Shown here: piece after piece, positions 11,716 to 15,518 of the stretch
Position numbering within the stretch: the first letter of the stretch is position 1
Layout of the letters: every line of letters starts with the position of its first letter
Assembly: GCF_026586675.1 (NCBI RefSeq)
Contig: NZ_JAODIX010000028.1
Span: forward strand, 29,021-66,870
DNA: 37,850 nt
Direction: 5' to 3'
Origin: Halorubrum yunnanense
GTDB taxonomy: Archaea; Halobacteriota; Halobacteria; Halobacteriales; Haloferacaceae
The notes under the pieces: generated by a model
The model's input: only the letters and a program-made list of their open reading frames with translations
Databases searched by the model: none
Told to the model about the DNA's origin: nothing
Translations under genes and position numbers: made by a program

Positions 11716-12759
11716 CTACCAGGTGTCGTGGAACGTGTCGAACTCGATCGAGTCGAGCGGCTTCTCGCCGATCGCGGCCTCGTACTCGCCGGGGGTCAAC
11801 ATCGGCTTGTGGAACCGGGGCCCGTCGTCGGTCGTGATACGGGGGCAGCCGGTGTTGACGAACGCGTCCATGTCGAAGTTGCGGAGGCGGTCCGGCGTCA
11901 CCTCGTCCATCGTGATCAGGTAGGCGTTCTCGTTGTTCTCGACGATCTCTTGGGCCGTCTCCCACCGGCCCTGCCCGATCTTCGTGCAGAAGATGACGCC
12001 CCACTTCTCGGCGCCCATCGCCTTGTGGACCGAGGCGTACCGCTGTTTGAGGAACTGGTCGTGCTCGGCGACCGAGACCGCGTTATTGACGGGGTCGGCG
12101 ATGACGACGCGCTTCTCGGGGTGCTCCATCGCGAGTCCGACCGGGTGGAACTTCCCGCCGCCGACGTACAGCACCTGCTCGGCGTCGATGTCCGCGGAGG
12201 CGTAGTTGCAGCCGAGCACCTGTCCCTCCTTGGTGAGCCGGTCGTCGCCCCGGCGGGTGTGGACCTCGTAGCCGCGCTCCTCGAGCCAGTCGGTCATCTC
12301 CTCGAACCGGTTCATATGCTGAGCCGTGGTGACGAGCCCGACGTCGGGGTTCTCCTCGGGGTCGTCGAGCTCCTCGTCCAGTGCGTCCTCCATGATCGGG
12401 AACGGGTCGACGTTCGAGAAGAGGGGGACGTAGACGATGCTGTCGGACTCCTTCATCGGCGTGTGGCCGAAGTGGACGAACACGTCCGTCCGGCGCATCA
12501 GGTACGTGTCGAGGTCGCAGGCGCCGTAGCAGGGTTGTCCGGACAGCATGAAGGTGACGTCGTCGGGCGCGACCTCGCGGAGGTCGTCCGCGACCTTCGG
12601 GCCGCGGCGCTTCAGTCCCTCGGGGAACTGGAGGCCGACCTTCGTGGCGTCGCGCTCCTCGATGGCCTCGACGATCCGGTCGATCTCGTAGTCCCACTCG
12701 CGGTCGTGTTTCAGGGCCATCCCCGTTTTCGTGAGGTCGCCCTCCGTGGAGCCGCTCAT
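11716..12759 (-). CDS. dph2: Diphthamide biosynthesis enzyme Dph2, Fe-S 3-amino-3-carboxypropyl transferase
   Basis: 347-residue enzyme that starts diphthamide synthesis on the histidine of elongation factor aEF2. An Fe-S cluster cleaves S-adenosylmethionine to give a 3-amino-3-carboxypropyl radical that is moved to histidine. The three cluster cysteines are present, one per domain: in SGQPCYGACD (Cys81, with Cys77 nearby), LGCNYA (Cys184) and NTGCPRI (Cys305). Other family blocks are VGLQFPEGLK (41-50) and HFGHTP (96-101). Length agrees with archaeal Dph2. CCGTTTAACC at about 12780-12790 supports the ATG at 12759. Dph6, the last enzyme of the pathway, is encoded at 20450-21166. Confidence 0.95.
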   Translation of the reverse strand: MSGSTEGDLTKTGMALKHDREWDYEIDRIVEAIEERDATKVGLQFPEGLKRRGPKVADDLREVAPDDVTFMLSGQPCYGACDLDTYLMRRTDVFVHFGHTPMKESDSIVYVPLFSNVDPFPIMEDALDEELDDPEENPDVGLVTTAQHMNRFEEMTDWLEERGYEVHTRRGDDRLTKEGQVLGCNYASADIDAEQVLYVGGGKFHPVGLAMEHPEKRVVIADPVNNAVSVAEHDQFLKQRYASVHKAMGAEKWGVIFCTKIGQGRWETAQEIVENNENAYLITMDEVTPDRLRNFDMDAFVNTGCPRITTDDGPRFHKPMLTPGEYEAAIGEKPLDSIEFDTFHDTW

Positions 12760-12927: not shown

Positions 12928-13581
12928 ATGCCCGAGATTCCGCTCGACCACGTCCACGTCGCCCCCGACGACGACCCCGAGAACGCCCCCGCGGTCTTCG
13001 TCCTCCACGGCCGCGGCGCCGACGAGGAGGACCTGCTGCCCGTCGCGCGGCATCTGCCCGACGACCTCCACGTGATCAGCCTTCGGGCGCCCGATCCGCT
13101 GCAGGGGGGGTACACCTGGTACGAGCTCGACCTGTCGGCCGGCGGCTTAGAGGAGAGCCAGCCCGACGCCGCCGACTTCCGGCGCAGCCTGGACCTGGTC
13201 GCCGAGAGCGTCGAGGCCGCGGCCGAGGCGTACGACCTCGACGCCGACCGAGTCGGGTTACTCGGCTTCAGCCAGGGGGCCATCACGAGCCTCTCGCTCG
13301 CCTTGGAGGAGCCCGACCGATACGCGTGGGTCGTCGCCCTCCACGGCTACCTCGCGGACGCGCACGCCGATCGCGGCCCCGACGGGATTGAGGGGAAGCC
13401 CGTCTTCGTCGGCGCCGGGACGGGCGACCGCGTGATCCCCGAGTCGCGATCGGTCGCGGCCGCCGACCGCTTCGAGGCGATCGGCGCCGACGTCACCCGC
13501 GGCAGCTACCCGGGCGGCCACGGGATCGGGCAGGAGGAGCTGGCCGATCTCGTCGCCTTCGTCGAGTCACAGACGGCGTGA
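12928..13581 (+). CDS. Phospholipase/carboxylesterase-type alpha/beta hydrolase
   Basis: 217-residue serine hydrolase of the Abhydrolase_2 (acyl-protein thioesterase-like) group. It has VFVLHGRGADEED as the oxyanion region (24-36), the nucleophile elbow GFSQG with Ser115, Asp167 in GAGTGDRVIP and His198 in YPGGHGIG, giving a complete catalytic triad. No signal peptide is visible, so it should act in the cytosol on small esters or thioesters. GATACAACCC at about 12893-12902 precedes the ATG by about 27 bases. Confidence 0.92.
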   Translation: MPEIPLDHVHVAPDDDPENAPAVFVLHGRGADEEDLLPVARHLPDDLHVISLRAPDPLQGGYTWYELDLSAGGLEESQPDAADFRRSLDLVAESVEAAAEAYDLDADRVGLLGFSQGAITSLSLALEEPDRYAWVVALHGYLADAHADRGPDGIEGKPVFVGAGTGDRVIPESRSVAAADRFEAIGADVTRGSYPGGHGIGQEELADLVAFVESQTA

Positions 13582-13695
13582 GCCCTCCGCGCTCAAGCGA
13601 GCCCCGTCCCGCGGCGACTCCGGGGTCGGCGGGCGATCGCGGCGCGCGACCGCGACCTCCGGCAGGTTGAAACCGCTCGGAACCGAAGAACAGTT

Positions 13696-14088
13696 ATGAG
13701 CGTTGAACAGGCCTCCCCCGACGAACAGGCCTCGATCGAGGACCTCGGTCGCGAGCTCGGCGAGCGGATCGCCCGAACCCCCGAGTACGAGCGCTTCGAG
13801 GCGGCGCGCGAGGCGGTACAGCGCGACGAGGAAGTCCAGGCGAAGATCGACGAATTCGAGCAGCTACGCGCGGAGTTCATGCAGGCCCGCGAGACCGGAC
13901 AGGCGACGAACTCCGGGCTCCAGAAGGTCCAGTCGAAACAGGACGAGCTCCACTCGATGCCCGTCATGCGGGAGTTCCTCGACGCGCAGGACGAGCTGAG
14001 CGACACCCTCGAAACGGTCAACGAGATCATCTCCGAGCCCCTCGCGGTCGACTTCGGCGGCGAGGCCGGCGGCTGCTGTCAGGACTGA
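13696..14088 (+). CDS. YlbF/YmcA-like helical protein with terminal cysteine pair
   Basis: 130-residue all-helical protein of the YlbF/YmcA family. The central region (about 25-110, heptad-rich, EYERFEAAREAVQRDEEVQA, SMPVMREFLDAQDELSDTL) forms the expected coiled-coil hairpin. The C-terminus ends GGEAGGCCQD, a cysteine pair that could ligate a metal or Fe-S cluster. In Bacillus, YlbF, YmcA and YaaT form an Fe-S-containing complex affecting mRNA maturation; this role cannot be assumed for archaea. GGTTGAAACC at about 13664-13673 gives a promoter for the ATG at 13696. The MinD-like gene follows after 39 bases on the same strand. Confidence 0.85.
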   Translation: MSVEQASPDEQASIEDLGRELGERIARTPEYERFEAAREAVQRDEEVQAKIDEFEQLRAEFMQARETGQATNSGLQKVQSKQDELHSMPVMREFLDAQDELSDTLETVNEIISEPLAVDFGGEAGGCCQD

Positions 14089-14127
14089 CTCGGCGCGGCC
14101 GACCGGTCCGTTTCCGTCCCGTTCCTT

Positions 14128-14835
14128 ATGACCGAGAGCGACGCAACCCACCCCGTGATCGCAGTCGCCGGCGGCAAGGGCGGGAGCGGGAAGACGACCA
14201 CGACCCTGGGGCTCGCGCGGGCCCTGTCTCGGCGGGGCGCGGCCGCGGTCGCAGCCGACGCCGACTGGGACCTCCCGAACCTCGCCCCGCTGGCCGCCGA
14301 GGTAACTGACGGAGCCGGCGCAACCGGAGAGCGCGACCGCCGCACCGTCGTCGACGCGGCCCGCAACCGCGGTACGGTTTCGCCGGGCCGAGCGGCGCCC
14401 GCGGTCTTCGCCGCGCCGGACGACCCCGAAGCCGTCGATCCCGCCCCGACGTTCGAGGCCCTCCGGAGCGCGATTCCCGACGACGCCCCGACGCTTCTCG
14501 ACTGTCCGGCTGGGGCGTCCCCGGACGCGGCGGCGCCGCTCCGCGCGGCCGACCGGTCGCTCCTCGTGACGCCGCTCCGGCGGTCGGCCCTTCGCGACGC
14601 CGCCAAGACGGCCGCGATCGCGCGTCGGTTGGACTGCCCGCCGCTGGGCGTCGTCGCCGTCCGCGCGTCGTCCGTCCCGGATCCGGTCGCCGACTTGCTC
14701 GGTTGCCCGGTACTCGGACGGATTCCGGCCGCGGCACCGTCGCCGCTCTCCGACCCGGCGGTCCGGTCGGCACACGACGACCTCGCGAGGCGGCTCGCCC
14801 GCGGGTACGGCGCGGAGCGATGGCTGGTCGCGTGA
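14128..14835 (+). CDS. MinD/ParA-like P-loop ATPase
   Basis: 235-residue ATPase of the SIMIBI MinD/ParA/CobQ class. The deviant Walker A is GGKGGSGKTT (15-24) with the signature lysine. AADADWDLPNLAPL (43-56) is the switch I-like strand and LLDCPAGASPDAAAPL (about 128-143) is the switch II/Walker B region. There is no obvious C-terminal amphipathic membrane-targeting helix as in MinD. It is shorter than typical MinD (about 260), Pro- and Ala-rich, and a likely orphan of the haloarchaeal MinD paralogue group. It is probably co-transcribed with the YlbF-like gene 39 bases upstream and perhaps the Rad55-like gene 74 bases downstream. Function unknown; polar placement, scaffold loading and Fe-S assembly roles exist in the family. 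Confidence 0.85.
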   Translation: MTESDATHPVIAVAGGKGGSGKTTTTLGLARALSRRGAAAVAADADWDLPNLAPLAAEVTDGAGATGERDRRTVVDAARNRGTVSPGRAAPAVFAAPDDPEAVDPAPTFEALRSAIPDDAPTLLDCPAGASPDAAAPLRAADRSLLVTPLRRSALRDAAKTAAIARRLDCPPLGVVAVRASSVPDPVADLLGCPVLGRIPAAAPSPLSDPAVRSAHDDLARRLARGYGAERWLVA

Positions 14836-14909
14836 CCGTCGATCCCGCTGCCCGGTCACCGTTCGGCGGGCACCGACAGAGCCAAACCTCCGGAGACGGC
14901 AGCGTTCGT

Positions 14910-15518
14910 ATGGAGCCGCTCCCGACGGGAATCTCCGTGCTCGACAGGGAGTTCGGCGGCGGCATTCCCAGCGGTAGCGTCGTCGCGCTGAAGGCCGAAC
15001 CCGCCAGCCAGTCGGAGCTCATTCTGGACCGCTTCTCCCGGGTTCGGGAGTGCCGGTACCTGACGACGGTCCGGTCGGCCGACGCGGTGGAAGCGAGCCT
15101 GGCGCCCGGCGACGACGGGACGATCGTTCGGGACGCGACGGGCGACGACCCGCTCGCGACGGTGTTGGACGCAGCCGCGGCTCTACCCGACGGCGGGACG
15201 GTCGTCGTCGATTCCGTCGGCCCGCTGGAGGCCGGCGAGGGCTACGGCGAGTTCCTCAGCGACCTCCGGCGGCGCGTCGCCGACGCCGGCGGGCTCGTGG
15301 TGCTCCACGCCCTCAAAGCCGGAGCGCCCGACCGCAATCGGATCGTCACCGAACAGGTCGCGGACGTCGTCTTCGACCTCCGGACCACGGTGACCGGCAC
15401 GGAGATAGCCAACCGGCTCGTCGTGCCCAAGTTCCGCGGCGGCGCGGCGTTAGAGGAGCCGCTCAAGCTGAAGCTCACCGACTCCGTCTCGGTCGACACG
15501 AGCCGCGATATCGCCTGA
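14910..15518 (+). CDS. RecA/Rad55-family protein lacking Walker A
   Basis: 202-residue protein with the KaiC/RadA-type entry motif LPTGISVLDREFGGGIPSGS (4-23), strand VVALKAEPASQSELIL where a Walker A should be (24-39), Walker B-like TVVVDS (97-102) and a closing basic segment NRLVVPKFRGG...KLKLTDSVSVDTSRDIA. The P-loop GxxxxGK[ST] is replaced by AEPASQSE, so ATP hydrolysis is unlikely although the fold is retained. Haloarchaea have many Rad55-like and KaiC-like paralogues, some acting as regulators. The ATG at 14910 fits the family start. An in-frame ATG at 14820 would add 30 poorly conserved residues and overlap the MinD-like gene. Confidence 0.78.
   Translation: MEPLPTGISVLDREFGGGIPSGSVVALKAEPASQSELILDRFSRVRECRYLTTVRSADAVEASLAPGDDGTIVRDATGDDPLATVLDAAAALPDGGTVVVDSVGPLEAGEGYGEFLSDLRRRVADAGGLVVLHALKAGAPDRNRIVTEQVADVVFDLRTTVTGTEIANRLVVPKFRGGAALEEPLKLKLTDSVSVDTSRDIA

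Follow-up and report, generated by a model that had tools for sequence, protein, structure and literature searches.

What do three small, closely spaced genes in a haloarchaeal genome do together, and which of them form a working unit? The genes in question encode a helical YlbF-family protein, a MinD-type ATPase and a RecA-fold protein of the DUF7125 family, and lie within a stretch of 37,850 nucleotides from Halorubrum yunnanense (RefSeq assembly GCF_026586675.1, contig NZ_JAODIX010000028.1, positions 29,021 to 66,870), hereafter the window. An earlier note, made from the DNA letters, had proposed the trio as an uncharacterised system; that description suits the system as a whole but not the ATPase, which corresponds to an already named gene, minD3.

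Genes, starts and promoter-like elements

The three open reading frames (ORFs) were recovered on the plus strand where the earlier note had placed them, with gaps of 39 and 74 bp, and their family matches (Com_YlbF, CbiA/MinD/ParA and DUF7125; Table 1) mark them as genuine genes. They follow dph2 (minus strand, 11716–12759) and an Abhydrolase_2 esterase gene (12928–13581), and an FKBP-type gene lies on the opposite strand beyond DUF7125. The nearest relatives of the DUF7125 protein in the window come from Halorubrum. This layout of the trio is kept throughout Haloferacaceae and is therefore not a product of chance.

As an ORF, the MinD gene spans 14128–14835 on the plus strand (235 aa from the ATG at 14128). 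The start is probably the GTG at 14155 instead, because GTG occupies that place in all 37 Halorubrum orthologs and ATG does so in other Haloferacaceae, and because the ATG at 14128 falls within a conserved TATA-like element; the product is then 226 aa long and the first gap 66 bp. Automated minD3 starts across Halorubrum may be wrong (14128–14157 in the window). For the DUF7125 gene, the conserved start is at 14910, although another ATG in the same frame lies upstream at 14820.

Anchored alignment revealed a conserved A/T-rich or TATA-like element 24–30 bp before the conserved start of each of the three genes, the position seen in leaderless haloarchaeal genes. The element is strong for YlbF and for MinD3 (A/T fraction 0.7–1.0 at −30 to −24 across 37 Halorubrum loci), while that of DUF7125 is weaker in Halorubrum and clear in other Haloferacaceae. 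Since each gene has an element of its own, the genes are likely to be transcribed independently, at least in part, with some co-transcription possible. Upstream of YlbF, CTCCGGCAGGTTnAAaCcG is kept in all 35 Halorubrum loci and is near-identical in 21 other Haloferacaceae loci. The conservation of CTCCGGCAGGTTnAAACCG (13656–13675) across the family exceeds the needs of a bare TATA box, and this stretch could be the site of a regulator.

Table 1. Positions of the features discussed, in window coordinates unless a locus label (L) precedes them.
Feature	Position	Strand	Evidence
Promoter-like element of YlbF gene, CCTCCGGCAGGTTGAAACCG, 21–40 bp before ATG	13656–13675	+	Conservation
YlbF/YmcA-family helical protein, 130 aa	13696–14088	+	PF06133 (Com_YlbF) E 8.5e-26, 90.9 bits (gathering cut-off 23.9); AF2 pLDDT 90
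Cys127–Cys128 in C-terminal tail FGGEAGGCCQD	14074–14079	+	Both Cys invariant in 27 non-redundant orthologs
TATA-like element CTTATGA, 24–30 bp before GTG of minD3	14125–14131	+	Conservation in Halorubrum
MinD3, deviant Walker-A ATPase, 226 aa from probable GTG start	14155–14835	+	CbiA/MinD/ParA E 7e-13; PDB MinD E 2.6e-12; synteny with HVO_1634
Deviant Walker A GGKGGSGKTT of MinD3	14170–14199	+	Both Lys and Walker B Asp invariant
DUF7125, KaiC/ArlH/RadA-paralog fold without P-loop, 202 aa	14910–15518	+	PF23442 E 3.4e-58, 196.6 bits (gathering cut-off 29.1), positions 1–207 of 207; AF2 pLDDT 90.7
AEPASQSE replacing P-loop of DUF7125	14994–15017	+	A-x-P-A-S-Q-S-E-L across the family; Ser33 and Glu36 invariant in 78/78
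Second MinD-like gene beside fusion	L335:1056–1994; L339:1043–1951; L340:1446–2204; L341:3891–4622; L345:4033–4764

MinD3, DUF7125 and their fusion

The deviant Walker A motif claimed for the ATPase is present in the ORF, and among 82 MinD3 sequences (motif KGGxGKT) both Walker A lysines and the Walker B aspartate are invariant, so an active ATPase is to be expected. The protein does not reach the cut-off of TIGR01969, the archaeal MinD equivalent (72.9 versus 201.75 bits), and we class it on sequence as a divergent MinD with archaeal MinDs as its closest solved relatives. Haloferax volcanii has MinD1 (HVO_0225), MinD2 (HVO_0595), MinD3 (HVO_1634) and MinD4 (HVO_0322) (PMC11588486). In Haloferax-like genomes the order is dph2–esterase–YlbF–MinD–DUF7125–FKBP, with a MinD that begins MLAIAGGKGGSGKTT; as dph2 is HVO_1631 (PMC3017900, PMC8305020), the fourth gene falls on HVO_1634. 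From this shared syntenic place and from its rank among the four MinDs, we infer that the trio ATPase is the MinD3 ortholog.

An assignment to MinD2 was rejected, as the MinD2 fingerprint of K16 (AAG) and D117 (GAT) (PMC11621097) fits another locus (L103) and is absent from the trio MinD. MinD2 is likewise a MinD-type ATPase and its gene, too, precedes that of a small partner, HVO_0596; AlphaFold 3 predicts contact between the two proteins (PMC11588486). This partner is a different protein from DUF7125: HVO_0596 orthologs (~194–233 aa, overlapping the end of minD2; L103, L107) do not resemble DUF7125, so MinD2 and MinD3 appear to have different partners. For MinD3 itself, which is merely named in the MinD2 paper, the literature searched reported no phenotype, function or partner. 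The quadruple minD deletion shows a motility defect no greater than minD2/minD4 (PMC11621097), with normal growth and division (PMC11588486), and for this reason no process has yet been tied to MinD3.

DUF7125 reads AEPASQSE where SSO2452 has GEPGTGKT, in agreement with the P-loop replacement first described. The Walker A pattern GxxxxGK[ST] is absent and the P-loop Gly, Lys and Thr are lost in all 78 non-redundant sequences, in which Walker B Asp101 and a C-terminal DTSRDIA are also conserved. The AF2 model adopts a RecA/KaiC fold, for which Foldseek returned SSO2452 as the best match (2w0m, E 1.9e-13), then KaiC and FlaH/ArlH (TM 0.77–0.78); a profile search agreed on these nearest solved relatives. 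The likeness consists in the fold and the retained Walker B Asp, but unlike KaiC, ArlH and SSO2452 every DUF7125 member is without the P-loop Gly, Lys and Thr.

A profile built from 40 MinD3 sequences was searched against 195 genomes of the order, 113 of which carried a strong MinD3. DUF7125 lies directly downstream on the same strand in at least 86 of these (gap 29–296 bp, median 47.5 bp). The two are fused in 16 genomes, 14 of them beyond the 86, which brings adjacency or fusion to at least 100 of the 113; among the other 13, several have DUF7125 matches outside those listed and one (G273) is a likely fusion. First spotted as MinD3 matches of ~200 bits inside ORFs of 430–560 aa, the 16 fusions are single ORFs of 425–537 aa, with MinD3 N-terminal and DUF7125 C-terminal. 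Pfam searches on two of them found both domains (DUF7125 4e-59 and CbiA 6e-14 in L332; likewise in L340). Their MinD3 domains group as a single clade (support 1.0), and 15 of the 16 retain the dead loop in the form S-Q-[STA]-E. Most of the fused genes share their genome with a stand-alone DUF7125; G251 and G278, which belong to the same genus, have no DUF7125 match besides the fusion.

The pairing of an active MinD with a dead RecA-fold partner, as the earlier note had it, is thus supported by the intact MinD3 motifs, the lost P-loop, the adjacency and the fusions. Because the genes adjoin, and fuse in 16 genomes, MinD3 and DUF7125 probably work as one machine, and their pair is the robust part of the trio; even so, fusion and linkage fall short of proving that the two proteins bind. 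Patterns of presence and absence say little about the pair, since DUF7125 is found nearly everywhere regardless of MinD3: 152 of 157 good genomes have it, a much wider distribution than that of MinD3, and it stands without an adjoining MinD3 in five families (f7, f10, f13, f14 and f15) and in part of two others (f4 and f5). It must therefore have a role independent of MinD3.

In several genomes a second MinD-like gene, convergent and of ~240–310 aa, adjoins the fused gene (Table 1).

YlbF and its Cys-Cys tail

The AF2 model of the YlbF-family protein is a helical bundle with a disordered tail, and its best PDB folds are SP1372, RicA and RicF. The cysteine pair with which the protein was said to end is present, but stands near the end (residues 127–128 of 130, ...GGEAGGCCQD). 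Across Haloferacaceae the tail hardly departs from FGGEAGGCC[QHN]D, and orthologs of other families carry FGxxAGGCCxD and close variants. The Bacillus Ric complex (RicA, RicF, RicT) shares the YlbF fold and C-terminal cysteines, which in RicF/RicA ligate a [4Fe-4S] cluster (PMC6751060). In the haloarchaeal protein, by comparison, the tail is CCxD in place of the RicF spacing, and none of 20 haloarchaeal genomes searched has RicT/PSP1 (B. subtilis control positive). With this partner missing from those genomes, the Ric complex cannot be transferred as such, and a Ric-like complex with RNase Y specificity was rejected.

Another relative with a Cys-Cys tail is HcsL of haloarchaeal ars operons, likewise of the YlbF family and beside a deviant-Walker ATPase. 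HcsL ends in GGGCC and follows ArsA, whereas the trio protein has the tail CCQD and scores 64.6 bits against the HcsL cut-off of 140 (NF041416), so it was not assigned there. The genome from which the window comes has three arsD-arsA-hcsL operons on other contigs (L236:6977–9705, L237:2986–5732, L238:5738–8553), in which arsD precedes arsA and the GGGCC protein (NCBIfam halo-CC-star HcsL) begins at the arsA end; this arrangement suggests that a Cys-tailed YlbF serves in arsenic resistance as an extra metallochaperone or thiol subunit. A role in anti-phage defence was discarded, PADLOC having returned only weak coiled-coil or P-loop matches.

Proposed mechanism and rival explanations

The best explanation, to which we give somewhat better than even chances, is a two-part MinD3–DUF7125 module with YlbF added in Haloferacaceae. 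MinD3 would be an active deviant-Walker ATPase switching between an ATP-bound dimer and a monomer, and DUF7125 its dedicated partner, an adaptor or effector that has lost nucleotide binding. In such a complex, changes in the ATP state of MinD3 would determine the place or time at which DUF7125 and its binding target, or cargo, are engaged, much as other haloarchaeal MinDs position chemotaxis arrays, archaella and CetZ1. The conserved function probably resides in DUF7125, because this protein is near-universal in haloarchaea and often occurs without MinD3, and MinD3 would regulate it. The addition in Haloferacaceae, YlbF with its invariant Cys-Cys tail, may be a thiol- or metal-binding subunit like RicA/RicF.

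The main rival for the placement of YlbF is that it belongs with Dph2, its tail supplying iron, electrons or cluster repair to [4Fe-4S] Dph2, and that the trio consists of two unrelated units. In eukaryotes, such a supply to Dph2 is the task of Dph3. A search of 20 haloarchaeal genomes found no Dph3-type CSL zinc ribbons. Outside Haloferacaceae, YlbF is not beside MinD3; in 85 of 90 genomes it and dph2 run divergently at most 7 kb apart, with 48 of the pairs under 1 kb (e.g. L314; L298–L317), the pair takes opposite orientations relative to the flanking genes in different families, and the Cys-Cys tail is retained. To this can be added the [4Fe-4S] binding by the tail cysteines of RicF/RicA (PMC6751060) and the action of yeast Dph3 on Dph1–Dph2 (cited in PMC11048331). 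Yet dph2 is present in 157 of 157 good genomes against 113 of 157 for YlbF. The region is itself generally syntenic, so linkage to dph2 was not accepted as proof of shared function. Moreover, dph2 is far away in six Haloferacaceae genomes, in all of which YlbF has stayed beside the MinD3/DUF7125 locus. On balance we think a Dph2 role unlikely. YlbF is treated here as a Haloferacaceae-specific companion of the MinD3–DUF7125 module, and a looser member of it: in that family it lies within 2.5 kb of DUF7125 in 27 of 29 genomes, and in other families it is linked to dph2 and not to MinD3. As one system, then, the trio holds up within Haloferacaceae but not elsewhere, where YlbF goes with dph2 and DUF7125 is often without MinD3. 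Scattered genes with separate promoters, which the earlier note had regarded as telling against a common system, are in part what we found: scattering in other families, and a promoter-like element for each gene.

A tighter association, in line with the earlier note's Fe-S suggestion, would unite the three proteins in an obligate Fe-S or thiol complex with YlbF as its metal-binding subunit; this seems improbable. The trio persists in Haloferacaceae despite changed neighbours, the cysteines are invariant, and the GGGCC-tailed paralogs come directly after ArsA, an ATPase of the same broad class; against this, in four of the Haloferacaceae genera sampled YlbF and DUF7125 are kept while no MinD3 adjoins them, one genome (G005) keeps YlbF–MinD3 with no DUF7125 match, the trio is unlinked outside the family, and the Ric partner RicT is absent from the 20 genomes. 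We give no greater credence to a DNA-based reading, in which DUF7125 would be an antirecombinase-like RadA paralog in repair or segregation and MinD3 its ParA-like partner on DNA. MinD/ParA families do include DNA segregation ATPases, and SSO2452, a RadA-paralog-type RecA-fold protein, is the closest solved structure by fold and by profile, but similar scores go to KaiC and FlaH/ArlH, neither of which acts on DNA, and among the neighbours checked (dph2, esterase, FKBP, CYTH) no recombination gene stood out. Still less probable is that the genes are packed neighbours without a shared function: separate promoter-like elements and the separability of the components across families would fit, and for YlbF this is possible, but the fusions and the adjacency or fusion in at least 100 of 113 genomes make it unlikely for MinD3 and DUF7125.

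Haloferax has four MinDs, two with roles, and a MinE-like partner is yet to be named in archaea (PMC11621097); the conserved and naturally fused DUF7125 is a concrete binding-protein candidate for MinD3. MinDs with dedicated partners are already known; a naturally fused, P-loop-less KaiC-fold partner is, to our knowledge, new, and the fusion and the MinD3 assignment likewise look new. Nothing was found on DUF7125, HVO_1633 or HVO_1635 in the literature searched. The pairing offers a possible function for DUF7125, a haloarchaea-wide protein and a clear case of a RecA fold that has lost ATP binding yet remains under strong selection. The linkage of YlbF to dph2 in turn makes it a candidate Dph3-like helper, and hints at a way in which Dph2 might be maintained in aerobic archaea that lack Dph3. 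A bolder combination, which we regard as a long shot, would make the nucleotide-dead KaiC/RadA-fold protein an obligate MinD effector, with YlbF adding an Fe-S or thiol switch in Haloferacaceae and serving Dph2 elsewhere in place of Dph3; MinD3–DUF7125 would then be a hybrid of two P-loop superfamilies, redox-responsive in Haloferacaceae.

At three loci the minD3 frame appears broken or shifted while YlbF and DUF7125 are intact (L158:8643–10723, L217:4556–6565, L233:5908–6549); these split frames may be errors or pseudogenes.
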